From: Ulota crispa
Taxonomy: Eukaryota > Streptophyta > Bryopsida > Orthotrichales > Orthotrichaceae
DNA: 64,000 nucleotides
Assembly (NCBI GenBank): GCA_963920765.1
Contig: OY987245.1
Span: 8,820,727-8,884,726, forward strand
Direction of reading: 5' to 3'
Below the pieces are notes generated by a model, which was not told the DNA's origin, searched no databases, and was given only the letters and a program-made list of their open reading frames with translations. Below, piece after piece: positions 2,269-63,847 of the stretch; position 1 is the stretch's first letter; each line of letters begins with the position of its first letter. A program made the position numbers and the translations under genes.

Positions 2269-2996
2269 TTAACCTCTAAAGGACCAAAGTCCCCTTGAGG
2301 GACTTTCGGGATTTTGGGCATGTACTTATGGCTAATCTACTTTGTGTAATTTTTTGAAACTTTTATGTAAGATGGGGAATCCAAAAATCTGTGTGGGCAT
2401 CTAATTTTTACCTCATTCCAACATTTATTGAAGAAGTTAAAAATGAATTTATGAGAATTTTAGTTTGGCGGGCAGCCCAAAAACTTCTTTAAAAATTTGC
2501 ATTTTTTTAAAATAAAAATTTGAGGTTAGTTCTTTAGACTTATGTATATGTGGGAAGCTTTAAATCATTCAATTCTAATTGATGAGATAAAAGTTATGAG
2601 AAAGTTTTAGTTTGCGGGTAGGTGTGGAGAATCTAAAAACATGCCTACACGCAAACTAAAACTTCTCATAACTTTCATCTCATCAATTGGAATTGAATGA
2701 TTCAAAGCTTCCCACATATACATAAGTCTAAAGAACTGACCTCAAACTTTTATTTTTAAAAAATGCAATTTTTAAAAAAGTTTTTGGGCTGCCCGCCAAA
2801 CTAAAATTCTCATAAATTCATTTTTAACTTCTTCAATAAATGTTGGAATGAGGAAAAAATTAAATGCCCACACAAATCTTTGACTTCCCCATCTCCCATA
2901 AAAATTTCAAAAAATCACGCAAAGTAGTTTAGCCATAGGTACGTGCCCGAAATCCCATTTGTTCCCAAAAAGGAGGCTTGGTTGTTTAGGGGTTAA
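2269..2996. mobile_element. TTAA-flanked long palindromic element
   Basis: It begins TTAA-CCTCTAAAGGACCAA and ends TTGGTTGTTTAGGGG-TTAA. Almost the whole element is an inverted repeat: left arm about 2290-2625, right arm about 2640-2965, with a spacer of about 20 bases, so a transcript would fold into a ~330-bp hairpin. A related palindromic copy lies at 12849-13574. No ORF of its own. Confidence 0.8.
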
Positions 2997-3085
2997 TCAC
3001 AAGTGCAAACACTGGTTGCAAACTTGTGATCAGCTCACATTGCTGGAATCTCTGGGAGTGCAGGCGTGCAAGATGTGGATAATGA

Positions 3086-3424
3086 ATGATTTTAGGGAAA
3101 ATTTCATGGATACCCCTAAAGTTTGCCATATTTGTATAGATATTCTTGCTTTTTTCAGAAATTTTGCAAATACTCTTGGATCAAAATTTTCACGTGTTTG
3201 TTTTGTTGTGCATGTCACTTCCATTCTTCCTTTGTGTGCACGGTTGCACACATAACAAGAAAGAGCTAATGTATCCACAAAGGGAGAAGGAAGTGACATG
3301 CACAACAAAATAAATGCATGAAAATTTTGCTCCAAGGGTATTTGTGAAAATTCTGAAAAAATAAGGGTATCTATGAAAGTATGGCAAACTTCACGGGTAT
3401 GCATGAAATTTTCCCATGATTTTA
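3086..3424. mobile_element. Mutator-like MITE with 9-bp TSD
   Basis: The element proper is 3095-3415. It starts GGGAAAATTTCATGGATACC and ends in the near inverse (GGGTATGCATGAAATTTTCCC, one base inserted relative to the left end). Both flanks carry the same nine bases ATGATTTTA (3086-3094 and 3416-3424). A 9-bp TSD with long TIR is the mark of Mutator-superfamily insertions. A second copy starts at 63848. The ORFs in it are by-products of the palindrome. Confidence 0.8.
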
Positions 3425-3644
3425 ATGCTTCGTGGCAGAGCTGTGTGAAATGGATGACATACCTCTGTGTATGTTTAGAAAGTGATTTTTGTCTATTTTT
3501 AAATTAGGATTGTGGAGAAAAGATATGTTCAGCCACTCAAACCTTTTCTACATAATCAAAATTTTGACCAAATCTAAATTTAAATACATAATCTAAAAAG
3601 TATAAAGGAGAGCAAATGGTGTTAAATTTTGAAGATTTCCACTT

Positions 3645-4622
3645 TTACTCCTCCATACCTTTAACCCATGTCAAGTGCAATTTTGCACCTATGAGAATAT
3701 GGTATGGCATGCTCATCATGCCAAGGCCACGCATCAGTTGATAATAGAAATTGAAGCGAGTGGGGAAGCGAGACAAAGACAAAGTAGAGTGATGAGTATT
3801 TTTATTCCATCCTACAACAATTAACCGTATCTTGATTAAACATATCAAAAACTTTAGAAGGATTTTTACAAAGTCGGCCTTAATTCTGAAGTAAATGACT
3901 TGGGAAGCCAACATTTTGAGTTGCAAGGATTGCAAACTAGCCACATCTTGCTTTGTAAAGTGTATATTATTCTTCACAACGAGGATATAATGTTGTGTTA
4001 CCAAGTCCATAACACTTTTATTCATTTGAACTTTCAATTAAGTAGAATTTACAATTTTAACTATTCAAAATTCAAAGAAAAATTGACATCATGTTTATTA
4101 ATCTTCACAAACCTCCTGACATGTGAAGACTTGCTATTAAAGTTATCAAACATTCTAATATACTCAACTGATGAACCTATGTTGAATTGTCACTAGTACC
4201 TGTAAGTTGTTGATCTCTTTGTTCAAAAGCGAGGCATTAGATAATTGAAGCAAATTGTTTATTAGTTGGACGTCCTTACCTCCTTTTAAAACAACAAAAC
4301 GACATTATTTAGCAAGATAACCATTCCTGATTAAAATTGCCTAAATAAGCCTTGGATCATGGGTTCCTAAAACCAAACCACCATAATTCTTGTTGATTCT
4401 TAAGTAGGATTCCAAGTTTTTCCCAAATTTTTTTTGGACACAATACAAATACATCAAGAATCCCTTACCAAAGTGTTGATTATAGATGAATCCAAAAATT
4501 GACTCGAAGCTCTCATATACTGTTATTTTAGTTATTTTAGGGTGTCCATAATTGTCTCTCATGAATGGCAACAAATTAGGGGCAAGGCAGTTCATATTAC
4601 ATCCCACATCCCATTCATGCAA
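3645..4622 (-). pseudogene. Unrecognised decayed coding-like sequence
   Basis: On the minus strand, open segments at 4622-4341 (contains YGHPKITKITVYESFESIF), 4340-4200 (LLQLSNASLLNKEINNLQV, with in-frame TAG and TAA) and 4037-3645 (FTKQDVASLQSLQLKMLAS) read like one old protein broken by stops and frameshifts. A divergent copy of the 3800-3930 part lies at 8677-8810, so it is repetitive and most likely a transposon relic. I recognise no domain. Confidence 0.35.
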
Positions 4623-4624
4623 AT

Positions 4625-4825
4625 CTCACCTCAATATGAGATCCCACTTTAGTTGGATTATTAAGGGCAAAAATGAGTGCAAAAGAAAGCTACGAATATT
4701 TTATCCAAATATTTTGGTGGGACTTGGGTTGAAGGTTGGGTTTAGCAAAATAATTGACCCAAACCTTCAGTGAAACTCACCTTTTTTAATGTCAAAATTT
4801 TCAAATAGTGTTGTCATGTAAACAA
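4625..4825. mobile_element. Fragment of the GGGCGGTTC MITE family
   Basis: The interior (GAGATCCCACTTTAGTTGG, then GGTTGGGTTTAGCAAAATAA) matches the elements at 37058, 41571, 48253 and 63066. The outer ends with the family TIR are missing. At 4664-4675 it carries the single-TTAA version of the site that is occupied by an insertion at 63145-63683. Confidence 0.6.
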
Positions 4826-4839
4826 CTACAATAAGGGAC

Positions 4840-5263
4840 TAAGAGCATCCCCAATGTAACCGGAACATAGGTACGGAAAACCTTGTCAAACCGTCTCTGA
4901 CTATGGCTCACTTCTAGGGTAGGGGCAATTCCCAACCTCCTAGCCCCCAATGCAAACAAGTTATGACACTCACTAAACACAGTTTTTTAATTGTTTATGC
5001 CTTTTTTAAGTGTTTATGTGAGAAGATTCATGTTAGAAACATCTAAAATTGCGTCGGGGTCAGAGAACCAGACACTCTAGAGTGGTATCCAAGACTCTCC
5101 AAAAAGTGCAAATATGTAGGGGAGGGGCTCTTGTGTGGGGAGGCTTGGAAAATTCAGTTCCAAGTAACTGCTGCATTGGAGCCTTGATTTTCACTAAAGC
5201 CCTGTTTAATAGTTTGTACAAACTTTTCTGTGTCTTGTTATTGCTACATTGGGGATGCCCTAA
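4840..5263. mobile_element. Harbinger-like element with TAA TSD
   Basis: TAA-GAGCATCCCCAATGTA at the left and TACATTGGGGATGCCC-TAA at the right: TIR of ~16 bp and a perfect 3-bp TAA duplication. The body is more GC-rich than its surroundings. The 75-residue frame at 5049-5276 reads through the right TIR and is not a gene. Confidence 0.8.
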
Positions 5264-5401
5264 GGACTTAGTGTGAAGTGCCCCTTAGTATTTCTAGGCC
5301 ATAAAGTAATAGTCTTCACTTGTGTTCAAAATTGCAGCACCTAAATATAGCAAACCTTGTTGCAATTTCTTTTTAGTAAAATTTGATACATGAAATGTGA
5401 C

Positions 5402-5651
5402 TAAGGTAGTGGGCTCTAATTGCGTTCAGCTCTAGGAACAAGAGACATTTTAGATGAAATACCTATGGTTGTCATTGATGAGTTACGTAGATTTAGCATA
5501 TTGCTAAGTCTACGTAACTCATCAATGACAGCCATAGGTATTTCATCTAAAATGTGCTAAGTCTACGTAGCTCATCAATGACAGCCATAGGTATTTCATT
5601 TAAAATGTCTCTTGTTCCTAGAGCTGAAAGCAATTAGAGCACACTACCTTA
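5402..5651. mobile_element. Foldback element with a repeated right-arm segment
   Basis: The left arm TA-AGGTAGTGGGCTCTAATTGC and right arm ending GAGCACACTACCT-TA pair for about 95 bp. The right arm is partly doubled: a segment with GCTAAGTCTACGTA..CTCATCAATGACAGCC occurs twice (about 5506-5555 and 5556-5605). A transcript would fold into a hairpin. No coding capacity. Confidence 0.8.
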
Positions 5652-6020
5652 TCACAATATTAGAATTTTGAAGTTTTAGCACATTCAGCAAAGTTTTTTG
5701 TTTTTTGTTTGGGTTACTTTTTTTTAAAGTTTTTTTCCGTGGGGGGTTTCCAAAAACTCCTGAAAAATCAATGCGCAGCTCCAGTCCAGCCCCCAAAGAC
5801 CACAGTTACGGATCTTCCAACACGGAGTGGCAAATTCAGTGGCAGGGGCGTCCTCTTCTGACAAGAAGCCCAGCTTAGCTTATTCATTGCAAGCTGCTTT
5901 GGAGTTTGGACTGGAGCCGCCGCCCCTCTTTTGCTTTTCCCCTCTGGTCCCTGGAGTCTGGACTGCGTCAAATTTCAACAACCCATGCATGCACGCCCCC
6001 AGCCTTGCTGCAAACTTAAT
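5652..6020. other. GC-richer intergenic segment
   Basis: Bases 5770-6000 have clearly higher GC than the neighbourhood, with overlapping short frames on both strands and no recognisable protein. It may be the interior of an old DNA element. Confidence 0.35.
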
Positions 6021-6801
6021 GAAGAGCATCTCCACCGGTTGGTAAAAAATAGCCAACATCGTGGCGAAAGGCTTCAAGTTGTGTCCTGGATCTTCACTAA
6101 GATAGGAGGCTCAGAAATCGACCATCTAAGGGCTGAAACTGAATTTTGGGGAGGTGAAATTTTTTGAACTATTTTTTAGTAAATTTTTCTTGAAAGTCAA
6201 GAAGAATTGACATCTAATCCAAGTTGTTTCATATTTTTTGGAACTTCGTGTACTTAGTTATAATATTTTGAAGTAAAAAGGTCATAGGGTTCTATAACGG
6301 TTCACCTCCTCAAATGTATTCTGCTTGTATATTTTTGAATCTTATGGAAAACAACATGTACACATGAAACACATTTGAGAAGGTGGACACTTTTAGAGCT
6401 TGAGCGGAATATGAGCCTCTCACCTTAGCAGCATGCTGAGAAAAACGGTTTGAGCAGCCTTGCCAAAGAGGCGCCCTGAGACGTTCAGCTGCTGAGAATC
6501 AAAATTTTTTGAGCGAGCTTAAATTGTGGTCTATTACTCTATTTTGAGAGTGCAAGGAATGTGCAGCAATGTCATGCCAAGGCAAGGCAATGGGTGCAAG
6601 GTGTTGGCGCTTTGGCGAGGCACCAAGCAACCTTCATGTGGCATGCCAATAGCTAAAGTTTGACCTAGATTCACCCTGCAAGCCATTTTTCCAACCGCCA
6701 GTGGACATCCCCAGCTCCTTTTTTGCAAATACCTCCACAATGTCCCCTCTCAGTTGCACATGGCGCGTTGTCTTTTCATTGGATTGGTGGAGATGCTCTA
6801 A
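6021..6801. mobile_element. Harbinger-like element carrying a nested insertion
   Basis: The left end GAGCATCTCCACCGG (from 6024) and right end GGTGGAGATGCTC (to 6798) are inverted repeats; flanks are GAA and TAA, so one TSD base has changed. A second element (6098-6427) is nested inside, which explains the length. Noncoding. Confidence 0.65.
6098..6427. mobile_element. Nested TIR element, copy also at 37407-37695
   Basis: The left end is TA-AGATAGGAGGCTCAGAAAT and the right end ATGAGCCTCTCACCT-TA. The interior (TTGTTTCATATTTTTTGGAAC) is found again in reverse orientation at 37407-37695. It sits inside the Harbinger-like element 6021-6801 and is therefore younger. Confidence 0.65.
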
Positions 6802-6975
6802 GAGCAACTTCAATGATTGCGCAATTTGTGCGTGTTGAAAAAGACAATTGGTGTTAATACTAGGGTTCTGGTGTTTGAAGTGCAAGATTTGGGGCTAGAG
6901 GAACTCAATGATAAACTTGCCAAGCAAGGAAATTGTGCTACTAGTTTGGGCAATTGACATTGCAGTATCCCTAAA
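6799..6975. mobile_element. Possible short Harbinger-like element
   Basis: TAA-GAGCAACTTCAATG at the left faces the imperfect inverse CATTGCAGTATCCC-TAA at the right, sharing the TAA with the preceding element. The TIR match is imperfect and the call tentative. Confidence 0.35.
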
Positions 6976-7327
6976 AGTATTGAGAATTGGACCCACTTGT
7001 TGTCACAATGCTATTGACCACACTTCTTGTTTCAATTAGTGTGCACTACAACAAGTTGCAAAATATTGCTTTAGTGCCTTGGTTGGCGTGCACCTCAATC
7101 AAAAATGTTAGATGTAATTTCCATTGGATCCTATATTTTCTTGTCCATTTCCAATTTATAGTTTTTGCACAAACATGGCATGCCCATTGAGAGTCCTCTA
7201 AAGATTGCTTCACATTACATTTATAGTATAATTAGGTTGCCCCACAATAATTCCTAGACATTTTACACTATATAAATATTTAGTGATATTGTAACAATTT
7301 CCATCAATAATTACTACAATCAAATTT

Positions 7328-7983
7328 TTAATCCCTCACCGCCCAAAGGGACCAAAACTATCCACCTTGCATTTTAATTTGGAATTAATTTACTTTTCTT
7401 GAATATTCATTTTGGTGGTTATTTTTTAAAATTATTCTTATTGAAGCCTTATCTTAGTATCAAAAATCCAATTTTGAAAATGAATGACTAAGATTTGTCT
7501 ATTCAAGATTTTGTGCAAGGGTGTCCATTGCAAATCTTCACCTTCTAATGTTGAGAGCTCTTGGAAATGAGCCTGAAGTACACTAGAACTTGGAGAAACA
7601 ATCACATTAGAAACTTAATTTAAAAAATTGTAGAGTAGATTTTAAGAAGCCGTAAATTGATTAGGGTTACACAGGTTGTACTTTACATAATCATATTTTT
7701 TTTGATATCCTCAATTTTAAATTTGAGATGTGAAAAGAGGATTGAAAGATTTCAAATCACTTTCATAGTTTTAACACTCACATGATCAAATCTTATAATC
7801 TTTCAATCCATAAGTGGTATTGTTGTGTTTTCTTTTCCTATGTGATCTCTAACATATCTAGTTTGAATTTGTACGATTACAAAAAATATATAAATGATGC
7901 AACTTATCAAAATGTTGCCATTCTGTTCATCCAAGAGCAGATTTTGAGATACTATGGAACGTCCGTGGGTGGTGAGGGGTTAA
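7328..7983. mobile_element. TTAA-flanked element
   Basis: TTAA-TCCCTCACCGCCCA at the left and TGGGTGGTGAGGGG-TTAA at the right. The interior (around 7500-7930) is related to the elements at 48667-49304 and 57255-57900. No gene: the 79-residue frame at 7782-8021 crosses the right end. Confidence 0.7.
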
Positions 7984-7994
7984 TAACAACAATA

Positions 7995-8256: not shown

Positions 8257-8445
8257 ATAAGAGCCTAACATCAATAACAATGCAAAACAAATTAGCAATT
8301 GCCAAGTTGTAAACCATGTGCAATCTTAATATCAAAAAAGTTGCATGCACCTCCAAGTGACCAAGCAACAAGTCATGAAGAAAATTCTAAATTATGGCAA
8401 CCTAATTGTTAAAGAAACTTAATTTAATTGCACTATTTAGTGTAG

Positions 8446-9635: not shown

Positions 9636-9744
9636 AACTTTAAATAACATGAAATCGTGAAAAGTTATGGAATTAAAACCTTGCAATTATAGAATCAAAA
9701 TTCTATAGACTTTTGAATAGTTTTGGATATTTTTTAAGGGCATG

Positions 9745-10145
9745 AATATGTGAACCACACCCTTTGAACTACTGTACCACACCCCTGAGGTAAATTTTAG
9801 ATTTCTACCATCAAAAGTTTGAGTTTGAGAATTTTGAATTCAAATTTGGACTTAGAGACCATGATATTTTCTAGGACCATAAAAAAAAATTGCAATTCAA
9901 CAACATCCAATGAAAAAGCTTATCTTTTTTTACAAACAAAAGTAAAATTAACAATTTTCTCCCTAACTAAACTTTTTCATTGGGTGTTGTTGAACTGCAA
10001 CTTTTTTTATGGTTCTAGACAATACCATGGTCTCTAAGTCTAAAATTTGAATTCAAAATTTTCAAATTCAGCTTTTTGATGGTAGAAATCTAAAATTTAT
10101 CCCGGGGTGTGGTATAGTAATTGGAAGGGTGTGGTACACATATCA
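9745..10145. repeat. Second foldback nested in CACTA copy A
   Basis: GTGAACCACACCCTTTGAAC at the left faces GGAAGGGTGTGGTACAC at the right. The arms pair almost throughout, around TCTAGGACCATAAAAAA and TTTTTTTATGGTTCTAGAC. It recurs at 52145-52545 in copy B. Confidence 0.75.
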
Positions 10146-11099
10146 ATTCCCATCTTTTAAAGCTTATAAAAATATTTTATAAGATTATTTTTTTCTAATT
10201 CATTTGGTTAGTAATAGAAGGAAAAATACTAAAAATACCCTTTAAGTCTTTCAAAATATCAAGTTTACACCAAAAATATTTGAAACATAAAAAATATTCT
10301 TTATTTTTTGTAGGAATATCAATTATACTCCTATTATTTTGAAAAAATCATAAAAAAACTCTTCTATTTTGAAATGTTAAATATATCCTTGTGTTATTTG
10401 AAATGTAAAAATCACCTTTGGTTTCTTGTAAGAATTTGCATTAAATTATACACTAGGTTATCATATAACACAAAGATATAAATAATTTAAAATAGTTGAG
10501 GAGCATTTTTAATATTTTCCCAATATATTAGAAGCATTGTTGATATTTATACAAAAAGGAAAGATATTTTTGGTACTTTTAATCTTTAAGGGACATATAT
10601 GATTTTTCAAAGAATTGAGGAGCATCTTTTATATTTGTTTGTAAAAGAAATTTTGGTATTTAAAACAACAAAATGTGGTATTTTCTATATAAAATTTTGT
10701 TGAATTAGTGAAGTTGTGTCCAAAAGTGTCCAGATCAACAAAAAATTGTTGATTATTTTGTTATTATGGTTATGTTTTTACTTGAATTTAAAGGCTGCTA
10801 ATTTTAAATCTAACCAAATTGTGAAAAGTAAAGAAAATAAAACCAGTCAATGTACACTCAAACTTCTAAAAGATTCCATTTTTTTTTGAAAACTTCTTTT
10901 ATTTTTGAAAACTTCAAATCATTTTAATGAGGTCCAAAAAGATTCTAGAAAGATTTCAAAAACAAACCTAAACTATTGTAATAGTTTTTTTATTAAAAAC
11001 ATTTTAAAGTATTTTGATGAATTACAAAAAGATTCCTAAATGACTCTAATTTAGTCTAAGAGATTCTATTTCTATAAGTATTTTGAAGTACTTTAACAA

Positions 11100-11804: not shown

Positions 11805-12015
11805 TTAACCCTTAAAGGACGATAGGGCTTGGTATTTGCTACCAATAAGAAGTTTTAATTTGGGATCTCAAGTAGTTTACTACAACCGCTTTGATCTATT
11901 CTCCAACTTCTTTGTTGATCTCAAATGCAGGAAATGTGTGAATTTATTCCAAATACAAGAAAAACACTTTGTATTCTATTGGTCACAAAGGCACACTTTG
12001 TCCTTTAAGGGTTAA
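11805..12015. mobile_element. TTAA-flanked MITE, 240-bp subfamily
   Basis: TTAA-CCCTTAAAGGACGA at the left and TTTGTCCTTTAAGGG-TTAA at the right. An inverted relative lies at 30213-30455 and a more degraded one at 1201-1456. Noncoding. Confidence 0.8.
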
Positions 12016-12848: not shown

Positions 12849-13574
12849 TTAACCCCTAAAGGACCAAGTCCCATTTTTGGGGACAAATGAGATTTTGGGC
12901 ATGTACCTATGGTTAGACTACTCTGTGTAATTTTTTGAAATTTTTATGGAAGATGGGGAACTCAAAGATCTATGTGGGCATATAATTTTTTCTTCATTTT
13001 GACATTTATTGAAGAAATTAAAAATGAATTTCTGGGAAAAAGTCCAGATCATGCAACCCAAAAAATTCTTAAAATTTGCATTAAAAATAAAATAAAATAA
13101 AAAATAGGTTCTTTAGACTTATATATAGATGGGGAGCTTTGAATTATTCAATTTTCATTAATGAGATGAAAGTTATGAGAAGTTTTTGTTTGCGGGTAGG
13201 TGTGATTTTGAGAGAAACCATACCTACACATGAACAAAAACTTCTCATAACTTTCATCTCATCAATGAAAATTGAATGATTCAAAACTCCCCACCTATAA
13301 ATAAGTTTCAAGAACCTATTTCCTATTTTTATTCATTTTTTATGCAATTTTTAAGAATTTTTTGGGCTGCCTGATCTGGACCTTTTCCCCAAAATTCATT
13401 TTTAACTTTTTCAATAAATGTCAAAATGAAGAAAAAATTAGATGCCCACGTAGATCTTTAAGTTTCCCATCTTCCATAAAAGCTTCAAAAAATCACGCAA
13501 AGTAATCTAGCCCTAGGTACATGCCTGAAATCTCATTTGTCCCCCAAGGGGACAGTTGGTCCTTTAGGGGTTAA
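12849..13574. mobile_element. TTAA-flanked long palindromic element
   Basis: TTAA-CCCCTAAAGGACCAAG at the left, GTTGGTCCTTTAGGGG-TTAA at the right. The interior is a ~330-bp inverted repeat with a short spacer near 13205-13225 (GTTTGCGGGTAGGTGTG faces CATACCTACACATGAAC). Related to 2269-2996. Confidence 0.85.
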
Positions 13575-14295: not shown

Positions 14296-15199
14296 TTAAC
14301 CCCTAAAGGATCAAGGAGCCCACTATGGGTTTTATGAGAACTTGGGCAGGCTCTATTGACTTCATAATTTGGAAATTTTTCATGAAAATTTTAGGATGGG
14401 TGCTACTCATCATAATCTACATGTGAAGCTTTATTTCATGTCATTCCGATAACTAATATATAACTTAGAAGGTTTTTTTAATTGCAAGGTCAAACCAAGT
14501 AGCACAATTATATTCTATTTTTTAATAGAATTGTATAGAATGATACCTACTCAAAAAAAATTGAATCACTCAATTCCAACTAGTGAGGTAAGAGTTCAAA
14601 GGAGTTTTATTTTGCGAGCAATGAAGGTAGGAAGAGGGTAGAAAAAACATATAAAGTTATCTTTTACTCTCAATTTTGAAAATTTTCAAATGAAAATGAA
14701 AGTCAAAGTTACTAATCCTCTGTTAGAGCATTCTCACTATTGGGATTAACAATTTTCAAATTCTTCCAAAACTTATTAGCCTATTAGTTATATCTTTCAT
14801 TCATCAATACCTTCACTTTACAGTTTTTGTAAAAATGAATCCAATTTTTTTTTTGGTTAAATTTTTTTTACATGCTTTCAACCCATTTTTCAACATGTTG
14901 CCAAAATTGCACAAGGAATACAACATATGTGTTTTTCTCCAAAAAGTTTGAAAAAAAAACTTCACCTTGTGGAAGGATTAGAAAAGCCTACAATTTGAAA
15001 TATAGGCACATTGATCTTGCAATTGGTGGGGATATTCATTTTGAAATTTTGGGACAATGTACTTGTGCAAGTCAACCAAAGGATCCTACAGTTGGATTTG
15101 TTAAAAAATAAGTTTCAATGAAGATTTTGACCTTGATTTGGGGACTAGTATTTTGAAGCAGTTTTGGGCCTCTAAACACAAAAGAATTTTAGGGGTTAA
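14296..15199. mobile_element. TTAA-flanked element, 0.9 kb, copy also at 44212
   Basis: It begins TTAA-CCCCTAAAGGATCAAGG and ends ATTTTAGGGG-TTAA. The copy at 44212-45278 is collinear over its whole length apart from one CACTA insertion. The frame at 14872-15111 is partly kept in both copies but shows frameshifts in the second, so there is no good evidence for a gene. Confidence 0.8.
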
Positions 15200-15443
15200 C
15201 CCCTGAGCGCCTAGGCCATATTTACTCAAATCCATACCCTTGTGTACTTAGTCCAATAAAAGTATTACTTAAGTAGAGTCAAATAGCTTGAGTTTTTTTT
15301 GAGTGGTAGTAGACACATGCCTAGAGGTACATGAAAAAGTACAAGTCCTTTAACTTTACCATTAAAAAGAGGATAAGAGTCAAACATGGACATTTCTCAA
15401 AATTGACAATCATATAGTGGTCACTGGTGCGCTTAGGGGTTAA
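15196..15443. mobile_element. TTAA-flanked MITE abutting its neighbour
   Basis: TTAA-CCCCTGAGCGCC at the left and GGTGCGCTTAGGGG-TTAA at the right. Its left TTAA is the right TTAA of the preceding element, so one inserted into the target site of the other. The interior belongs to the GAGCGCC subfamily with 20518 and 28968. Confidence 0.75.
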
Positions 15444-17354: not shown

Positions 17355-18254
17355 TTAACTCCTAAATACCCAAGGGACAAATGAGATTTTGGGCAGGTAC
17401 CTACAACCTCAATTTTTGTTTTGATTTTTTGAAACTTTTTTTAAAGATAGGAAAGTACATTAGCTTTTGGGGAATATAGTTTTTATTCCAATCTTTGCCC
17501 AAAAGCAAAATTTATGGAGATTGGGCAGCAAAAAAAAATTACAAAAACTTGAGTTTTTTTTAAATTTTTTTCTTCTTCTCATTAGGTTATAGTTTTGTCT
17601 ACATCTAAAGCTTTGATTCATTGCATTTGCACTAGTTATGAGAAAGTTATGGACAATCTTGTTTTTCGGGCAATTCAAGCATCTTCTTGATAAAATTACT
17701 TATAAACTTCATTTTTGAATGCAAGTTTAACATTTTTTTGAAAAAATTTGTTGGAGAGGGTGAAGTTTGCTTTCTAGAACAATCTCACCTTTGGGATGAT
17801 TGCGTTTCAATTCCATTGCAAGGTTATTAACAATTTAAGTTTTTGTTCAATCTCATACCTTCTTCCACCTAATGTTTTTTTTAAGAATGAAAATTAAGAA
17901 ATTTTTGTTTTGATTTTTTTCCAAAGATTCTTAACTCAATTTTCCACTATAAAAAAATAAACCTCAAAACTCCATTGTGCAAAAAATTTAAGTTCAAAAA
18001 GTTCAAAGTCAAATAATCTAGTCATGCAAGGTGCAAAAATGTTTGTTTTTTACACTTTAAATGCATCTATTTTGCAATTTAGGAGGCCAAAGTTTATGAA
18101 TTATTTTTCCCACATTCTTTTACTAGTCTAGTACATGATCCTATGCCTAGATATGAAAAAAGATCAATTTTCAAACTTGTTTACTCTTTGCAATAGAAAT
18201 GGCAGTTTTGAGTGTCTTTTGACAAAATAAAAGCCCCAGGGCTCTCGGGATTAA
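17355..18254. mobile_element. Probable TTAA-flanked element, 0.9 kb
   Basis: The left end TTAA-CTCCTAAATACCCAAGGG and right end GGGCTCTCGGGA-TTAA are degraded, but the left interior (GACAAATGAGATTTTGGGCA) matches the ends of the 12849 element. No gene. Confidence 0.5.
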
Positions 18255-20517: not shown

Positions 20518-20766
20518 TTAACCCCTCAGCTCCTAGCCTAAATTCGTGTAGTGTTAGACCTCATTGCAAACAATTTGGCTCTTTAAGTTCAAAGACTAAA
20601 TCTAGAAGAGTTAGCCATTGATATTGCACAAGGTTTAGGGTCCGCATATGTATGAAAAATTTGGTAAGTTTCTATTGCATGGATCAAAAGATTATAACAG
20701 TCAAAGACAACAAACCGTCAAATATGGAGATGCCACATTCTGGCTTGTGGGGCGCTCACGGGTTAA
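20518..20766. mobile_element. TTAA-flanked MITE (GAGCGCC subfamily)
   Basis: TTAA-CCCCTCAGCTCCTAGCC at the left, GGGGCGCTCACGGG-TTAA at the right. It is a close direct relative of 28968-29214: both contain GTGTTAGACCTCATTG and GGATCAAAAGATTATAAC. Noncoding. Confidence 0.85.
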
Positions 20767-28967: not shown

Positions 28968-29214
28968 TTAACCCTGAGCGCCCAACCCAAATTTGTGCAG
29001 TGTTAGACCTCATTGTAGACAATTTGGCACCACAAATTCAAAACAACATCTAGAAGAGTTAGCCATTGATATTGCACGTGGCTTAGGGTTTGCATATGTA
29101 TGAAAAGTTTGGTAAGTTTTTGTTGCATGGATCAAAAGATTATAACGGTCAAAGACAACCAACCGTCAAATATGGAGAGGCTACATTCTGGCCTATGGGG
29201 CGCTCAAGGGTTAA
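28968..29214. mobile_element. TTAA-flanked MITE (GAGCGCC subfamily)
   Basis: TTAA-CCCTGAGCGCCCAACCC at the left and GGGGCGCTCAAGGG-TTAA at the right. Close relative of 20518-20766. Its right TTAA is the left TTAA of the next element. Confidence 0.85.
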
Positions 29215-30077
29215 CCCCTAAGCACCCCAGCGCCTCAAATATCGCCTCCCACTATTTCAAAACCTTGTTTTGAGGGACTGGATCTAACTTTTTGATCTTG
29301 CTATAAACTTCAATTATGAAGGCATTCAAGTTGTCTATGCCAATGGAGTAATGGCAAAGAAAGCCAAATGTTGTACAAGCACTAGAAGAAAACTGCGTTG
29401 GAATCCACTAAAAATGTCTAGTGGTTTATGTTGAGTTCCAACGCGGTTTTCTTCTAGTGAAGTGTTGCAAGAGATTTGACTGGGTGAAATACCATACGGG
29501 GCGTGGTGGCAAGCATATGGGGCGTGGTGGTAAGTAGCATTTTATAGGTTGCAACCGGTCAATATCCCTTGCAAGCTTCCTTGTGTAAGTTTTGTGGTAG
29601 TAGGAAAATTGTTGACAAGGGTTCAAGCATGTTCTAGACCCTTATTATGGCAACTGTCACCAATTGTGCTAGTCATTGTTTTCCGTGCAATAGCCATTTG
29701 CAGCCCTAAAACGGTTCACATAAAAAAAGTGCAGTCTTCTATAATTTACAAGTGTGTGCACTCACATCTAATCTTGCTACTCACAAAATTTGAGATGAAT
29801 CCGGGGCTTATAGAATTTTGTAAAAATCATCAAATAGCTACTACCTACCAAAAATGAGATTTTGTCATCACATGTTGTTTGATCAAATGTTATAATCTCC
29901 CATCTCCCATGGTCAATTGTTCCAAATATTTGCAAGCCATTTTCTAAGTAGGCGTTCCACTATTTTCAATGGTCACTTTTTGTGGATCATCCAATTGACA
30001 AAGATACGATGCATCAAAGTCGTTGGTCTCCAAAAACCCTGATTTTGGTGAAAACGGCATGGGTGCTCAAGGGTCAA
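29211..30077. mobile_element. TTAA-flanked element with nested CACTA MITE
   Basis: TTAA-CCCCTAAGCACCCC at the left. The right end GGGTGCTCAAGGG-TCAA is the inverse with a mutated TTAA. It contains the 80-bp CACTA element at 29380-29459. A 102-residue frame at 29549-29857 has no recognised domain. Confidence 0.55.
29380..29459. mobile_element. 80-bp CACTA-type hairpin MITE with AAG TSD
   Basis: CACTAGAAGAAAACTGCGTT at the left and AACGCGGTTTTCTTCTAGTG at the right, flanked by AAG on both sides (29377-29379, 29460-29462). Nearly the whole element is palindromic. Confidence 0.9.
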
Positions 30078-37702: not shown

Positions 37703-39745
37703 GGACTTGGTTGCCCCACACTAATTTCTTGACATCAAATGGTGCATGGCACTTATAACCAACAACTCCCAATTCAAGTGGTTAGCCTAAAGTTTTGTCA
37801 AAATGAAAAGTTATCAAAAATTCTAGTCTATTGAGACGAAGCTTAGGGTTTGTTCCCGCTTGGTGGTGGAATTACTTTTGAGCTAATGGGTATATGTGTT
37901 GTGCTTTAGTATTTCTTGTTGGGCCAATGGTTGTTGGTTATAAGTGTCATGCACTATACTAATAAAATTAGTGACCTCTATACTATCACATATCTAATCT
38001 CTATGATATTGTAGAACACTAGGAGATAGCCATTGAAATCAAGGTGACATGAGAGAGGGTACATATAGTGATATTAAAGAGGTAGTAGTTTTATTGCTTC
38101 ACACTTCATTGCTTTTCAAAATTTTGGGGAGCTTTGGATTTCCATGATTTTACTTTTCTATTGCTATTTTCAAATGACTTGAAATATTTGTTAAATAAAT
38201 TATGATGATGAGTGAGTAGTGTAGCAAACACCAACTACTTGTATAGTGTAGAACTAGCAGTTGGTGCTTGGTAGGCTAGGCATTAACCATTAGAATTTAT
38301 GTAACAAATGTTTCAAATCATTTGTAATAGCAATAGAAAAGTGAAATCATGAAAGTCCATAGTTTCTCAAAATCACATTATTTTAAAATCAAAGGAGTGT
38401 GAATCAAAGAGAAGTAATACCACAATGACCTCCTTAACCCCTAAAAGCCCAAGCCTTTTTAATGTGAAAGTCATTAAAAACTGCCACTTTGGAGGGAATG
38501 AGTAGAAAAATAGGAAATAGAGTTTGTTTTGCAAATTCAACTGTAGGATCTTGCCTTAGACTAGAAAAGGTACTTGTGGGAAAAAAATCAGGTCATTCTA
38601 GAAGGAGAGGAGGGAGATGTTTACAACTAAAGTGAAAAAAAAAAGTTTTTTTCGTGTTGTCCAAAAAATTCATAAGCCTTTGACCACTCTTACATGAAAA
38701 AAATTGCTCTACACAAAGTTGAGGTTTGTTTTTTCCATGTAGAAGACCAAGTTAGGTATGTGTGGGAGAATTTTCAAATCAACTGGAACTATACAACACA
38801 TGGAAATAAAATAGTAAGTAAAAAGAAGTAGAGAATGAGTCAAATCACTAAATTGTTAAGAATTTAATTATTGAAATGAAAAATGCATATCCCAACGGTC
38901 ATAATATTGTGATAAACAATCTACTTCTTTAGGTTAAGTTTCTTTTCCAAAATACTAAAAATTGTGGAAATTAAAGGACTTCAAAGTTTATTTTAGTGTA
39001 GAGGATCCATAATCACTCACAAACAAAAACATCTCATTACTTTCATCTCATTGATTGAAATTGAATGATACAAAACTTACCACATATATGAAAATCTAAA
39101 GAACCAATTTCAGATTTTTGTTTTTAAAAAATACAGTTTTAAAAGAAGTTTTTGGGCTGCTTGGATTGCCCTCCCTTCCCTTGATTGCATAAATTCTTGC
39201 ATAACTTCTTTGTCAATTGTCAAAATGAAGAAAAAACTTGATGCTTGCATAGGTCTTGGAATTCTTCACCTTCAATAAAATTTCTAAAAAATCATAAAAA
39301 CTAGATTAGCTATAGGTACATGCCCGAAATCTATTTGTCTCCCCAAGGGACCGTTGGCCCTTTACGGTTTAATATCATTTTGAACACCCTCTTTAATATC
39401 ACCTCAACTTCAATAGTTTTCTTCTAGTTTTTTATAATATCATAAAGATTGGAGATGTGGTATTATAGAGGTCATTGTGATTTTAGTAGTATGATACATA
39501 CATACAATATCATATTAGTTTTCATCAATATATTATTGCAATGAAAAACTTTATAAAGGGCATGGCAACAATAACAAAACTGCCCAAAAACAAATTAGCT
39601 ACATCTTGGTTGTAAACCATGTGAAATCCTAGTATCTAGATAATTGAATGCCCTTACAAGTGACCAAGTGATGATGAGTCATGAGGTAACTTTCCAAGGT
39701 AAAGCAACCTAATTTTTTAGGAAAACCAAATGCAATGCTTAGTGT
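37703..39745. mobile_element. Dispersed repeat (GGTTGCC..GGCAACC family) enlarged by insertions
   Basis: The left end GGTTGCCCCACACTAATTTC and right-hand GCAACCTAATTTTTTAGG recur at 7220-8445. Inside is a TTAA element (38434-39372). Bases 38200-38430 hold an inverted duplicate of 38090-38190-type sequence (TTTGAAATATTT / AAATGATTTGAAAC). Boundaries approximate; no gene. Confidence 0.45.
38434..39372. mobile_element. TTAA-flanked element, 0.94 kb
   Basis: TTAA-CCCCTAAAAGCCCAAGCC at the left and GGCCCTTTACGGT-TTAA at the right. Collinear in part with 54735-55655 (GAAAAATGCATATCCCAAC, GGACTTCAAAGTTTATTT) and near the right end with 12849-13574. Noncoding. Confidence 0.7.
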
Positions 39746-44211: not shown

Positions 44212-45278
44212 TTAACCCCTAAAGGACCAAGGAGCCCACCTTGGGCTATATGAGAAATCAAGCAAGCTCTATTGACTTCATAATTTGGAAATTTTTCATG
44301 AAAATTTTAGGATGGATGCTACTCATCATAATCTACATGCGAAGCTTTATTTCATGTCATTTGTATAAGTATTGTAAAAGTTAGAAGATTTTTTTAATTT
44401 CAATGTCAAACCAAGCAGCAAAAAATATATTCTAATTTTTTATTTTTTACTTTTTAATAGAATTTTATAGATTGATACCTACTCAAAAAAAATTGAATCA
44501 CTCAATTCCAAATAATGAGGTAAGAGTTACAAGGAGTTTTCTTTTGCAGGCAATGAAGGTAGGAAGAGGGTAGAAAAAACATATAAAGTTATCTTTTACT
44601 CTTAATTTTGAAAATTTTCAAATGAAAATGAAAAATAAAGTTACTAATTGTATGTTAGAGCATTTTCACCATTGGGATTGACAGTTTTCAAATCTTATTA
44701 GCCTATTAGTTATATCTTTCATTCATCAATACCTTTCACTTTACAGTTTTTGTAAAAATGAATCCAAATTTTTTTGGTTAATTTTTTTATATATGCTTTC
44801 AATCCATTTTCCAACATATTGCCAAAATTGCACAAGAAATACAATATACAAGTTTTTCTCTAAAATGTTTGAAAAACAAAACTTCACCTTCTGGAAGGAC
44901 TAGAAAAGCCTGTGTTTTGAAGTTTAGGCACATTGATCTTGCAATTGGTGGGGATATTCATTTTGAAATTTGGGACAATGTATTTGTGCAAGTCAACCAA
45001 ATGATCTTACTGTTGGATTTGTTAAAAGGTAAGTTTCAATGAAGATTTTGACCTTGCTTTCACTAGTAGAAAAAAGGCAATAAACAACTAAGTGACAACA
45101 ACTAAATCATAACTATACTTACTATATAACAACTACAAAATGACTCAATTTCACTTGTATAGTTGTAGTTTACTTGTTGTCACTTAATCGTTTAAGACCC
45201 GTTTTTTTACTAGTGTTTGCAGACTAGTATTTTGAAGCAGTTTTGGACTTCTAAATACAAAAGAATTTTAGGGGTTAA
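44212..45278. mobile_element. TTAA-flanked element with nested CACTA MITE
   Basis: TTAA-CCCCTAAAGGACCAAGG at the left, AATTTTAGGGG-TTAA at the right. Collinear with 14296-15199 except for the CACTA element at 45061-45215, whose empty site is visible in that copy (around 15137). Confidence 0.85.
45061..45215. mobile_element. 155-bp CACTA-type MITE with TTT TSD
   Basis: CACTAGTAGAAAAAAGGCAA at the left and GACCCGTTTTTTTACTAGTG at the right, flanked by TTT. The related element at 14296-15199 shows the uninterrupted target. Confidence 0.9.
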
Positions 45279-48666: not shown

Positions 48667-49304
48667 TTAACCCCTAAAGGACCTTGAGGACAAAATGTGT
48701 CCTCAACTAATTTTTGAAGTTAAATAAAACCTTACCAAATTAATATTTTTAGTAGTTTATATTTTTGAAATTTTCTTTTTGAAGTTTAGTTTTAGTTTCA
48801 ACAATTTGATTTTGCAAACAATTGATTATGGTTTTTCTATTCAAGATTTTGTGCATGGGTGTTCATTGCAATCTTGACTATGTAGTGTTGAGGGCTCTTG
48901 GAAATGAGCCTCAAATACACTAGATCTTTGAGAAAAATCATACAAAAAATTGTAGAGTAGAATTTGAGAAGTAATAAATTGATTGGGGTTATGCATGTTA
49001 AGCTCTTTAACCTCATATTTTTTTGGTGACCAAGTTTTTAAATTTGACATGTGAAAAGAAGATGGAAAGACTTCAAATCACTTTCACAATTTTAACACCC
49101 TCATGATGAAACATTATAATCTTTCAATCTATAAGAGATATTGTTGTATTTTCTTTTCTAATGTGATCTCTAACATGTCTAGTTTGATTTTATACGGTTA
49201 CGATTCAAAAAGAATTGATACAACTTATCAAAATGTTGGTTTTTTGTTCAAATAAGAGCAAATTCCTAGAAGCTCAAAAAATTCTAGGGTCCTTCAGGGG
49301 TTAA
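48667..49304. mobile_element. TTAA-flanked element, 0.64 kb
   Basis: TTAA-CCCCTAAAGGACCTTGAG at the left and AGGGTCCTTCAGGGG-TTAA at the right. The interior is related to 7328-7983 (direct) and 57255-57900 (inverse). Confidence 0.8.
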
Positions 49305-51620: not shown

Positions 51621-51684
51621 TGTGCAAATGCACATGCATACATTATTATCTTAATTCTATTTGTACATTAAATGTTCATGACTT

Positions 51685-52035: not shown

Positions 52036-52144
52036 TTCAAATAACATGAAGTCGTGAAAAGTTACGAAATTAAATCCTTGCAATTATAAAATCAAAATTC
52101 TATCGACTTTTGAATAGTTTTGGATATTTTGTAAGGGCATTAAT

Positions 52145-52545
52145 ATGTGAACCACACCCTTTGAACTACTGTACCACACCCTTGGGGTAAATTTTAGATT
52201 TCTACCATTAAAAATTTGAGTTTGAGAATTTTGAATTCAAATTTGGACTTAGAGACCATGGTATTGTCTAGAACCATAAAAAAAGTTGCAATTCAACAAC
52301 ACCCAATGGGGGGGGAGCTTATCTTTTTTTACAAACAAAAGTAAAATTAACAATTTTCTCCCTAACTAAACTTTTTCATTGGGTGTTGTTGAATTGCAAC
52401 TTTTTTTATGGTTCTAGACAATACCATGTTCTCTAAGTCCAAATCTGAATTCAAAATTTTCAAATTTAGCTTTTTAATGGTAGAAATCTAAAATTTACCT
52501 TGTGGTGTGGTATAGTAATTGGAAGGGTGTGGTACAGATATCAAT
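52145..52545. repeat. Second foldback nested in CACTA copy B
   Basis: GTGAACCACACCCTTTGAAC at the left and GGAAGGGTGTGGTACAG at the right. Near-identical to 9745-10145, with a short G run (GGGGGGGAG) replacing A bases at 52309-52317. Confidence 0.75.
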
Positions 52546-53399
52546 TCCCATCTTTTAAAGCTTATAAAAGTGTTTTATAAGATTGTTTTTTTTTAATTCA
52601 TTTGATTAGTAATAGAAGGAAAAACAATAAAAATACCCTTTAAGTCTTTCAAAATATCAAGTTTACGCCAAAAATATGTGAAACATAAAAAATAGTCCTA
52701 ATTTTTTGTAGGAATATCAATTATACTCATATTATTTTGGAAAATTAATAAAAAACTCTTCTATTTTGAAATGTTAAACATATCCTTGTGTTATTTGAAA
52801 TGTAAATATCACCTTTGGTTTCTTGTAAGAATTTGCATTAAATTATACACTTGGTTATCATGTAGCACAAAGATATTTTTGGTACTTTTAATCCTTAAGG
52901 GATATTCATGATTTCTTCAAAGAATTGAGGAGCATCATTTATATTTGTTTGTAAAGAGATTTTGGTATTTAAAACAACAAAATGTGGTACTTTTTATATA
53001 AAATTTTGTTGAATTAGTGAAGTTGTGTCCAAAAGTATCTAGATCAACAAAAAATTGTTGAGTTTTTTGTTATTATGGTCATGTTTTTACTTGACTTTAA
53101 AGGCTGCTAAGTTTAAATCTTACCAAATTGTGAAAAGTAAAGAAAATAAAACCAGTCAATGTACACTCAAACTTCTAAAAGATTCTTTTTTTTTGAAAAC
53201 TTCTTTTATTTTTGAAAACTTCAAAAAAATTTAATGAGGTCCAAAAAGGTTTTAGAAAGATTTCAAAAACAAACCTTAACTATTGTGATAGTTTTTATGA
53301 AAGAATTTTGATGATTTACAAAAAGATTCCTAAAGGATTCTAATTCAATCTAAGAGATTCTATTTCTATAAGTATTTTGAAGTACTTTAACAAATTTCA

Positions 53400-54734: not shown

Positions 54735-55655
54735 TTAACCCCTAAAGGACCAAGCAAAGTTTTCACCAAAAAAATTCCAAAACTGCCATTCTTAAAGTAT
54801 CAACCAAATTTGAATACAAAAACATTTTGCATAAGTGACTGTAGGATCTTGTAGAAGAATAGTTGTAGAAGACGTGGAAAAAATTTTCAATTTTTCCATT
54901 GAGTGGATTGGAAGTTAGAATGGTTTAAATATTCAAAAACACCTTGTGAAAAACCAGGCAACTACCCTTCAAAAGGTGAAATTTCTAAGGAGAAAAGGCC
55001 ATGTGGATGGTGCTTCTCTAAATTCCTTATTCCACTTAAGTAAAGTACATGTCAAAAAAGTTTCTATTCATTTGAAATTGGATAACATATGGAAAAAATA
55101 GTAAGTAAAAAGAAGTAGAGAATTATTCAGAACACTAAATGGTTAGAAAATTTAATTACGGAAATGAAAAATGCCAATCCCAATGATTGTAATGTTGTAA
55201 TAAACAATCTACATCCTATGGTTTTGTTTTTTTTCCAAAATAATGAAAATTAAATAAAACAAAAGACTTCAAAGTTTATTTTAGAGTAGAGAATCCATAT
55301 TAATTGCTTGCAAACTAAAAGTCCTCATAACTTTCATCTTGTTGATTAAAACAAAATGATTCAAAGCTTCCTACATTCACATAAATCTCCTAAACCAATT
55401 TAAATTATTATTTCTTTTAAAAAATGATTTTTATAAATCTGCTTGGGTTGCTTGCCAAGTGAATAAAACAACATATTAGGCCCTAATTTTTTACTCATAA
55501 TTTCAAATATCATGAAATTTAGTGTATATGAAAGATAAACATTGCTCCCACATTCTGTTAAAATTTCAGCCTAAAATATGAAAAGTTCCAATCACATGTA
55601 CCTGCCCAAAATTGCTATGTTGCTTTAAAAAATCATCTGGTCGTTTAAGGGTTAA
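54735..55655. mobile_element. TTAA-flanked element, 0.92 kb
   Basis: TTAA-CCCCTAAAGGACCAAGC at the left and CATCTGGTCGTTTAAGGG-TTAA at the right. Interior shared with 38434-39372 and 26820-27332 (GTAATGTTGTAATAAACAAT). Confidence 0.8.
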
Positions 55656-56827: not shown

Positions 56828-57059
56828 TTAACCCCTGAGCGGCCCATTGGCCATCTTTGGCCGTATGTACGGCCGTATATATACCCATATTTGAGCTGCT
56901 TTGAGGGATTTTCAAAAAAAATTATGCACCCACCATCATACATCCCTTCAATATGTATGGTTGTAACACTTAATTTCCAACTAATTCAAACTTCTGAATA
57001 TTAATTGCGACCGTATTTGATATCATATCTCTAGAGCCTAAGGGCCCTTCAGGGGTTAA
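56828..57059. mobile_element. TTAA-flanked MITE
   Basis: TTAA-CCCCTGAGCGGCCC at the left and GGGCCCTTCAGGGG-TTAA at the right. Close to the left end GGCCATCTTTGGCCG forms a short hairpin. Noncoding. Confidence 0.8.
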
Positions 57060-57254: not shown

Positions 57255-57900
57255 TTAACCCCTCAACGCCCCTAGTGTTTTTGAGTATCTCAGAATTTTC
57301 TTGAAAGTGAAAAAAATGTTGGCATTTTAATTAATTTAATCAATTTTTTTGAAAGAGAAACCGTAAAAATTCAAGGTAGATATGTTATAGATCATATATG
57401 AAAAGAAATCACAACAATATCACTTATTGAAAGATTATAATGTTTGATCATGAGGGTGTTAAAACTATGAAAGTGATTTGAAGTTTTTCAATCCTCTTTT
57501 TGCATCTCAAACCTAAAATTGAGGGTACCAAAAAAATATGAGTGTGTAAAAAATAACATGCATAATCCCAAACAATTTACGGCTTCTCAAAATCTATTTT
57601 ACAGATTTTTGATTGAATTTTTAATGTGATTTTTTATCCAAATTCTAGTGTACTTGAGGCTCATTTCCAAGAGCCTTCAACACTAAATAGTGAAGATTTG
57701 TAATGGACACTCTTGCACAAAATCTTGAATAAAAAAATCATTTTGAATAATTTTCAAAATCAGATTCTTGATGTTGAAACAAGACTTCAGTAAGAGTTTA
57801 AAAATAAAAATAAACACTAAAAAAACTTGAAGAAAAGTTAGGCATCTCTGGATTTTTTTTGAGGGGCGCAGTTTGAGCCCCTCGGGCGTTGAGGGATTAA
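57255..57900. mobile_element. TTAA-flanked element, 0.65 kb
   Basis: TTAA-CCCCTCAACGCCCC at the left and CGGGCGTTGAGGGA-TTAA at the right. Interior inverse to 48667-49304 (GTGATTTGAAGTTTTTCAAT). Confidence 0.8.
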
Positions 57901-61453: not shown

Positions 61454-63065
61454 ACTGACTTATTTTAAATATGACAAAAAAAACATAATATTATTTCAAT
61501 TGCCTAACCATATTTTGTACTCTAATTAATCATTAGGCAATTGGATGCCCAAGTTGATGTTAAGATATGACAATGCATACTGCATTTAATATAACTAGCA
61601 CAGTATGCAAAACTTTGAAAGATCTCTTCATGCATTTGAATCTATATAGTCCAGAATAGCACGAATGAATGTTTTTTCAAAGTGGGAGGTTATAGACCAC
61701 TTTCAATGCCAGTAGAAAACTCCAATTTCATGCAAAGATTTATGGTTTTAGTGGTTTAGCCTAATCATGCTTACATCATTTTGCTAGTTTTGTGCAACAA
61801 AATGCATGGTTAGATGAGCTGCTATTTGAAGAATGATATTTAGAATACGGCCTTCCCCACCTTGGGTCTTGAGGTTGTTTTCTAGTTTCATGAAGATTGA
61901 AAGAATTTTGAAAATACTTTTTTATTTGTAGTGAATGAAAACTTGAACATGTGAGTATAGTTGTGATGTATGCCTAGAGTATAATTTCTTTAGAAAAGAA
62001 CTCCAAAGTGCTCCTATACAAGTTTTTATGCACAATACATTGCACAATTTAGAAAAATAGAAATGTAGTTCAAAAATATTGTTGTTCATATAGAATCGGG
62101 TTTCAAAGTTAGTTCAATGGCAAGATTGTTTAACATATTGATGGCTTTGGCAACTATTAGTTTTGTGAAAATTGAGCTATCGTTGCTCCTTAGATTGCAG
62201 TGGTTCAAAGCTTGATGAAGGCCTCTTTGTTGGCAATTAAGATGTACAAATTATAGGGAATTACTAAATCAACACCCTAAATTGCTAATGGGACACTCCT
62301 TCTAAGCATGAAAATTGATAATTTAGTGCTATTTTTGATTTATTAAGTGGTCCATCATTCATTCAATCACAACATTATTACCTCCTTGAAAAAAAACATG
62401 ACAAATATACAAAATTATTGCACCAATACTATTTTTTAATATATTTTTGCTTTAGGTAACTCAAAAGTCCTATATTTTTAGTTTGAAATTTAAGCACACC
62501 TACTTTTTTGAGTATAACCTTAGAATGATAAAGGGGAAGCAAATCTTTTAATCCAAACTAAAAAATCAGCAAAATCAACATTAAAAATCACATTTTCATG
62601 CTCAAAGAGGATGTCCCGTTAGCAATTTAGAGTGTCGCTATAGTAATTCCCAAATTATATTCCTTTTAGTATTACTTGTAATCTTCTAAAAGCCAAATTT
62701 TCTAATTGTTAGGTTTGGGTGTGATTACCGGTATTTCATTTTGAAGGTGAAATTTAGATATACATGATGAGTGAAATATCCTTGAGGAGAAATTCAACAC
62801 AGGAAGACAACAAGGAATACGAGGATTTTCAGTTTTTAACCTCTTCTTACCTCTTTTCTTTAGTAAAATAACTTAAAATTTATATTGAAATCATTGTATC
62901 AGCACTAACGTAGAAAATCCATTTGAGTAAATCTCGGTTAGTTTTACTCAAATCTTAGTTCTAATTTTAAAAACAAGAGATATGGCAAGAGGTAATAAAC
63001 ATCAAACACTTACTTTACATGAACCACTCTCTAAAATTTCCCCGGAGGAACATCCATACCAATTC
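61454..63065. other. Intergenic, no gene seen
   Basis: AT-rich, no convincing frame and no repeat ends recognised apart from a weak inverted pair (GGGAATTACTAAATCAAC near 62258 and GCTATAGTAATTCCC near 62636, joined by CTAATGGGACACTCC / GATGTCCCGTTAGC), which may mark a further ~390-bp TIR element. Confidence 0.4.
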
Positions 63066-63847
63066 TAAGGGCGGTTCACACTACGCTCCACTTCCCATCT
63101 CTACAAGTCCCACCTCAATGTGAGATCCCAAATTTGTGGGGTTCTTAACCCCTAGGTGCTCAATCAACCATTTTCTGATCGTTGTCTGTTTTTTGTGGGT
63201 TGCCTAGGATGAAAACAAATTTTTTTTTTTTTTTTTGTGTAATAGAAAATCAATTCTACTTTCCAACCCAACTTAAATCATGTCAATCCAAGTTAAATTC
63301 CATCAAGGAGAATTTTTCAAAAACGAACACTTCAATATTTGCTAGTGTTGTAAAATTTATTATTTTGGGAAACTAATGATGTTCTCTCCTTTGAAAAGAT
63401 TGCATTTTTGAAGTTTACAATAGAATGTTTGTTTTTAACCAATCATACCAAATTTTAAAATCTATACATAAAATTTGTAATATTGGTAAACATTAAATGA
63501 TAAATGCTTCTAAATTCATTAGATAAAAACCCAATTTTTTTTGAATATTTGACTATATGGATAATTACTAAACATCATGATTCTTGTTTTCTCTTTTGAA
63601 ACAAACTTCATCAAAGTTACATAAGTATTATTTTATAATACATCTATGTTTTGCCCTTACCCCCTTGGGCGTATAGGGGTTAAGGGTAAAAAGGAGTACT
63701 AAAGAAAGTAGTGAATACTTTGTACAAAAAATATTGGTGAGATTTTGTCTAAAAGTTGGATTAGCAAAATGGTTAGCTCAAAACTTGAATGAAGCCATGC
63801 CTTTGCTAGAGCCAAAACTTTCAAAAAGTGCTACCATGTAAGCAAAA
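63066..63847. mobile_element. GGGCGGTTC-family MITE, split by a TTAA element
   Basis: TA-AGGGCGGTTCACACTACG at 63066. The interior resumes after the TTAA element at 63684 (GGGTAAAAAGGAGTACTAAA) and runs to AGCAAAA at 63847, where a Mutator-like MITE interrupts it. The right TIR lies beyond the window. Confidence 0.75.
63145..63683. mobile_element. TTAA-flanked element nested in a MITE
   Basis: TTAA-CCCCTAGGTGCTCAA at the left and GGGCGTATAGGGG-TTAA at the right. The host element's uninserted version at 4664-4680 has a single TTAA followed by GGGCAAAAATGAG, so TTAA is the duplicated target. A T run lies at 63220-63236. Confidence 0.85.

Follow-up and report, generated by a model that had tools for sequence, protein, structure and literature searches.

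Insect miniature inverted-repeat transposable elements (MITEs) that are assigned to piggyBac are short, gene-less and flanked by TTAA, while the Tourist and Stowaway MITEs make target duplications other than TTAA. In published accounts, piggyBac itself is a 2.4-kb element with 13-bp terminal inverted repeats (TIRs) and a TTAA target (PMC2874221), its repeat begins with CCYT under the published terminal rule (PMC10175614), and the plant MITEs of the Tourist and Stowaway types are attributed to PIF/Harbinger and Tc1/mariner, respectively (PMC9033089). Here, we describe a large set of short repeats with TTAA-CCCCT ends in a 64-kb stretch of contig OY987245.1 (assembly GCA_963920765.1, positions 8,820,727 to 8,884,726), referred to as the window, and compare them with these systems. 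We consider it very probable that the repeats belong to the piggyBac superfamily as non-autonomous, MITE-like elements of a moss, moved by cut-and-paste and probably mobilised by piggyBac elements resident in the same genome. Like Tourist and Stowaway, the moss elements are short, high-copy plant MITEs; compared with the insect TTAA MITEs, the moss set lies in a plant, has thousands of ends and includes near-complete foldbacks. The host and the scale are new, while the mechanism would be ordinary piggyBac cut-and-paste.

An earlier note, made from the letters of the window, had listed about twenty elements with TTAA-CCCCT ends on both sides. All 18 listed starts consist of TTAA followed by CCCCT or by a form of it with one or two mismatches, and the exact words TTAACCCCT and AGGGGTTAA occur 25 times in the window, whereas 100 first-order Markov resamplings averaged 0.65 of them and never exceeded 3. 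Taking as a right end TTAA plus at least four of the five bases of CCCCT at a plausible distance from the start, 15 of the 18 starts can each be paired with a separate right end; the claim fails in this respect for 17355, 29211 and 38434, which lack a proper one. The 15 paired elements and 38434, sixteen in all, total 9.2 kb of the 64 kb and range in size from 0.21 to 1.07 kb. They are given below with the two lone left ends (positions in the window; no strand is assigned unless stated; basis in brackets).

2269 to 2996: foldback TTAA MITE, 728 bp, nearly all self-complementary (ends; self-inverted match of 87% over 735 columns)
7328 to 7983: TTAA MITE, 656 bp, kin of 57255 and 48667, with a left end like that of the transposase-bearing element of locus L051 (ends and interior comparison)
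11805 to 12015: TTAA MITE, 211 bp, kin of 30213 (ends and interior comparison)
12849 to 13574: foldback TTAA MITE, 726 bp, of the family of 2269 (ends, palindrome search and interior comparison)
14296 to 15199: TTAA MITE, 904 bp (ends and genome-wide copies)
15196 to 15443: TTAA MITE, 248 bp, with TTAA 15196-15199 in common with the 14296 element (ends and genome-wide copies)
17355 to 17376, plus strand: lone left end TTAACTCCTAAATACCC, right end not found (end scan)
20518 to 20766: TTAA MITE, 249 bp, kin of 28968 (ends and interior comparison)
28968 to 29214: TTAA MITE, 247 bp, left end CCCTGAG (ends and interior comparison)
29211 to 29232, plus strand: left end TTAACCCCTAAGCACC, with TTAA 29211-29214 in common with the 28968 element; its only partner, at 30455, belongs to 30213 (end scan)
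30213 to 30455: TTAA MITE, 243 bp (ends and interior comparison)
38434 to 39372: probable TTAA MITE, 939 bp, with a degenerate right end at 39372 (ends and interior comparison)
44212 to 45278: TTAA MITE, 1067 bp, of the family of 14296 (ends and interior comparison)
48667 to 49304: TTAA MITE, 638 bp (ends and interior comparison)
54735 to 55655: TTAA MITE, 921 bp (ends and interior comparison)
56828 to 57059: TTAA MITE, 232 bp, with an end-like AAGGG directly before the left TTAA at 56828-56831 (end scan)
57255 to 57900: TTAA MITE, 646 bp (ends, interior comparison and genome-wide copies)
63145 to 63683: TTAA MITE, 539 bp; insertion L024 has one of its relatives as target (ends and empty-site comparison)

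The end sequences are mostly CCCCT, which is one C more than the CCYT rule, with some CCCTT, CCTCT or CCCTG. Within the pairs, the two arms agree at only 6 to 15 of the 16 bases inside the TTAA, the lowest values being those of 28968 (6/16) and 14296 (8/16), and a second possible right end is present for 14296, 44212 and 56828. The interiors, supposed earlier to be of several unrelated kinds, form about eight groups. One group comprises the foldbacks 2269 and 12849, self-complementary at 86–87% across their full length, with 38434 and 54735 as partial relatives; the others are 14296/44212, 7328/57255/48667, 20518/28968 and 11805/30213, and the singles 15196, 56828 and 63145. The TTAA shared between neighbours at 15196-15199 and 29211-29214, as well as the AAGGG beside 56828-56831, would be expected if the TTAA at the edge of an element is itself used as a target.

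The genome assembly that contains the window spans 274.8 Mb in 157 contigs (labelled C1 to C157; the window lies on C4). Across it, there are 5341 exact matches to the end CCCCTAAAGGMCCAAG, of which 4486 (84%) directly follow TTAA, where chance would give about 1% at the base composition of the window; the reversed-pattern control was found 0 times genome-wide. Searches with single elements gave first-look candidates in large numbers, namely 1231 for the 904-bp element 14296, 577 for the 248-bp element 15196 and 4029 for the 646-bp element 57255, with 40 scored in each case. For 14296, the scored places were its own and 39 at 88–90% identity, and copies of this family lie on contigs C1 to C10. 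Among its 30 best-scoring copies, TTAA is present at all 30 right ends and at 29 of the left ones (59/60), and the 20-bp flanks outside the TTAA are unlike one another by eye. These copies lie 3.6–6.1% from their consensus and at a median of 8.1% from each other; the pattern, taken from the best-scoring copies only, suggests a star-like burst that was not recent. The closest pair, L008 and L012, differs by 1.1%; the two lie 14 kb apart on C2 and may have arisen by local duplication.

To compare filled with uninserted sites, the flanks of 49 elements were rejoined with a single TTAA and compared against the sequence in hand, which gave 26 rows across the junction from 12 of the 49. For 8 of the 12 elements, the best row joins the flanks without a gap across exactly four bases (TTAA in 3, TTGA in 3, TCAA in 1 and TTTA in 1). 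Genome-wide junction patterns were then used for two insertions, L008 and L024, with any four bases accepted in the middle and no more than 3 mismatches, a design that by construction reports only gap-free sites. The target of L008 has 13 uninserted relatives, carrying TTAA in 8, TTGA in 3 and TTAG in 2, one of them being the site of L052 that was already known. The target of L024 has 989, and among the 100 mismatch-free sites listed of these the four bases are TTAA in 89, TCAA in 3, TTAG in 3, TAAA in 2, CTAA in 2 and TTAT in 1. The uninserted relatives, empty sites of the kind that the earlier note had asked for, mostly carry one TTAA; these insertions thus brought in the element together with one extra TTAA. 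A TTAA target duplication is therefore found, with exceptions, in the copy ends, the end counts and the empty sites.

Elements of the PIF/Harbinger Tourist type make a 3-bp TTA/TAA target duplication, and a palindromic TTAA also reads as an inverted repeat, so that TTAA could in principle be part of the terminal repeat and the duplication another one. We regard this as highly improbable: a single TTAA is kept at the uninserted junctions of L008 and L024 in the proportions given above, the 20-bp flanks outside it differ by eye among the 30 copies, and filled and empty sites differ by 4 bp, mostly TTAA, rather than by 3.

A transposase of the expected family is present in the same genome. A search with the Pfam family DDE_Tnp_1_7 had 528 first-look candidates, of which 116 places were scored. 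These lie on contigs C1 to C11 and yielded 120 rows; every row passes the curated cut-off (best E-value 1.3e-73), and 10 of the 120 are free of stops. Open reading frames (ORFs) from loci L053, L055 and L051 match DDE_Tnp_1_7 alone in hmmscan (2.6e-59 to 6.1e-61), and the solved-structure relatives of the L053 ORF at E-values up to 0.01 are only piggyBac (6x67, 4.1e-20) and piggyBat (9c0f, 5.8e-17). The catalytic D-D-D positions, D268, D346 and D447 in Trichoplusia ni piggyBac numbering, are occupied by Asp in 19, 14 and 18 of 21 high-scoring copies, respectively. Of the 12 departures, 11 are Asp to Asn and one is Glu; the Asn replacements could be the outcome of C-to-T decay. The read-through translations have a median pairwise identity of 34% and fall into seven clusters at 50%, figures that frame breaks lower somewhat, and several old transposase lineages therefore seem to coexist. 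The transposases of the piggyBac superfamily have a C-terminal cysteine-rich domain, and such a pattern can be made out in L032, L034 and L048, three of the 20 read-through copies. Relatives of the transposase were found neither on plasmids (tblastn) nor in viral contigs (six peptide patterns). Fourteen control genomes gave piggyBac in 0 of 14, a set that seems plant-free (LEAFY 0, PsaA only in Synechococcus) and is uninformative on plants. Upstream of its transposase, L053 also contains an open frame of 354 amino acids (2429-3493) with repeated basic KRKYTRK motifs and no Pfam match.

The transposase and the terminal repeats are joined in the same elements. Four of six ten-kb transposase loci (L051, L052, L055 and L056) were delimited as elements of 5.0–5.7 kb ending in CCCCTAAATGCC and CCCCTCATCGCC, and the Pfam transposase match lies inside all four. 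L051 on C3 and L052 on C10 have a 5.03-kb block in common, with different flanks on different contigs; the L051 element runs from TTAACCCCTCATCGCC to GGCAATGAAGGGTTAA (1863-6889). The L055 element measures 5746 bp (1967-7712) with TTAACCCCTAAATGCC at both ends, and its relative L056 extends from 2471 to about 7926. Like T. ni piggyBac and piggyBat (6x67, 9c0f), the moss elements combine DDE_Tnp_1_7 and its D-D-D positions with TTAA and CC-rich ends; unlike them, they reside in a moss, are 5.0–5.7 kb long when delimited, end in CCCCT instead of CCYT and include a lineage whose catalytic domain is predicted to be split by an intron. With TTAA-bounded ends, empty sites, a piggyBac-type transposase in the same genome and elements that join both, the attribution to piggyBac-type transposition made from the window is supported. 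No autonomous copy had been seen in the window, in agreement with a tblastn search of it with 20 transposase translations at E-values up to 0.01, which found no transposase fragment (the intron-bearing L065 type lay outside the query set).

In the proposed mechanism, resident piggyBac elements of about 5–6 kb would encode a D-D-D transposase that would recognise CCCCT-type terminal repeats, excise the DNA between them and insert it at TTAA, leaving TTAA on both sides. Short gene-less elements that kept these ends would then be moved in trans and could reach thousands of copies. We infer the cut-and-paste mechanism from membership of the piggyBac family, and the individual catalytic steps, the cross-mobilisation and the pairing of particular transposase lineages with MITE families are inferred as well. 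The MITEs were probably amplified by resident, diverse piggyBac elements that are now mostly decayed.

Several observations weigh against this interpretation. At the rejoined flanks, 4 of the 12 best junction rows are not gap-free, 5 of the 8 gap-free joins have TTGA, TCAA or TTTA in place of TTAA, and for one of the eight, L004, the match is to the element's own inverted flank, so that it does not count as an independent empty site. Two of the delimited elements have an imperfect TTAA (TTCA at the left of L052, TTGA at the right of L056), L053 carries Asn in place of the third aspartate, and L053 and L054, whose transposase domains are stop-free, could not be delimited in their 10-kb loci. 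Full-size elements and the transposase were found in the genome, where the earlier note had proposed to look for intact elements, but an intact transposase inside delimited ends was not seen. The partner elements all lie outside the window, and their ends are not exactly the commonest MITE end. No end pairs were found within 1.5 kb of 20 transposase matches, these loci being shorter than the elements, and right-end candidates were present at 4 and left-end candidates at 0 of the 20 short loci. Past the terminal 20 bp, the similarity of MITEs to transposase-bearing elements is weak, the best z-scores being 5.5 and 5.3 in 192 comparisons with 60 simple shuffles each. The second of these (z 5.3) is a likeness beyond the terminal repeat between the left end of the 7328 MITE and the L051 element; sub-terminal similarity of this kind is suggestive only. 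A match of L031 4012-4105 to the window MITEs was rejected as a link, as it lies just outside the element, whose right end is at L031 4002.

Kolobok and Sola3 also prefer TTAA; the Kolobok transposase is of the Kolobok/THAP type, and Sola elements make a 4-bp target duplication. The MITEs could have been moved by such a TTAA-using superfamily, with the piggyBac elements as coincidental residents, an explanation that draws on the fact that TTAA is not unique to piggyBac and that no delimited transposase-bearing element has the exact main MITE end CCCCTAAAGGMCC. Sola1, which belongs to another superfamily, is moreover known from a moss host, Physcomitrella, in one review (PMC9033089). We consider this explanation unlikely, given that elements with a piggyBac transposase have TTAA followed by CCCCTAAATGCC or CCCCTCATCGCC, which are similar to CCCCTAAAGGACC and CCCCTCAACGCCC of the MITEs, and that the CC-rich ends are in line with the piggyBac rule apart from the one additional C (PMC10175614).

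Since piggyBac is best known in animals, contamination of the plant assembly by other DNA was also considered. Its probability appears negligible: the transposase places on C1 to C11 and the MITE copies on C1 to C10 are in chromosome-size contigs, L051 and L052 are one element with unlike flanks on two contigs, and C4, which holds the window, also carries the one strong match to the LEAFY SAM family. Five weak matches to that family lie on C1, C2, C3, C5 and C10. Both psaA and psaB are present on C157, a plastid-like contig; the best scores are to 8htu and 6l35 for PsaA and to 6l35 and 8htu, then 7ksq, ahead of 9lut, for PsaB. We take 6L35 to be a photosystem from the moss Physcomitrella patens, and from these plastid proteins the host is taken to be a moss. 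In the same searches, 46 of the 48 psaA/psaB rows were fragments on contigs other than C157, for example C1:39701403-39702104, that is, plastid DNA in the nucleus.

One transposase lineage differs in gene structure. In L065 (C1:1178500-1184500; gene at L065 2240-3841), the transposase domain lies in two open pieces with all three catalytic motifs and no stops in the catalytic domain. Three GT-AG choices of intron keep the frame open, and of their donors, GTAAGA of the predicted intron at L065 2641-2919 is the most usual. A search with the second piece gave 131 rows at 33–74% identity besides itself, many with stops; at least two near-complete relatives are stop-free (C8:8688505 and C5:11629480), and L065 is not unique. 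The 4.1 kb upstream showed no left terminal repeat, while a sequence resembling a right end is present downstream, at C1:1184004. Judged from sequence, three readings of L065 are possible: domestication, the loss of one end in this copy, or a functional copy with its left end further off. A wider possibility, which we put forward tentatively and think rather doubtful, is that piggyBac is an old moss resident in which deep lineages coexist and repeatedly spawn high-copy MITE families, with an intron gained in one lineage and perhaps, in L065, a domesticated plant counterpart of the animal PGBD genes left behind.

The earlier note held that piggyBac is not generally reported from land plants. 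In agreement with this, a 2022 land-plant review presents six cut-and-paste TIR superfamilies without piggyBac, and by count the word is absent from it (PMC9033089); scattered plant mentions nevertheless qualify the statement. They comprise one sentence on piggyBac in plants (PMC2874221), an entry in a list in a 2024 plant review (PMC10794571) and a PiggyBac label with 1230 copies in the repeat table of the C-fern genome (PMC6890710); a borrowed piggyBac is now used in plant genome editing (PMC10794571). No description of the piggyBac elements of a moss was found in the literature searched, which consisted mostly of open papers and gives no proof of absence. The 116 scored transposase places and the thousands of TTAA ends would extend piggyBac to a land plant with ends, targets and enzyme together. 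They make it testable whether piggyBac was lost in other plants or gained horizontally in mosses, and they may provide native plant piggyBac parts.

A generic palindrome search of the window returned one of the MITEs (12849) and three other pairs. A palindromic repeat at 3080-3420 starts with GGGAAAATTTCATGGATACCC, and by eye no TTAA-CCCCT ends were noticed on it. Another self-complementary repeat has two copies in the window, at 9733-10153 and 52132-52557, and is also present at matching places inside the transposase-bearing L055 (about 2981-3385) and L056 (about 6525-6908).

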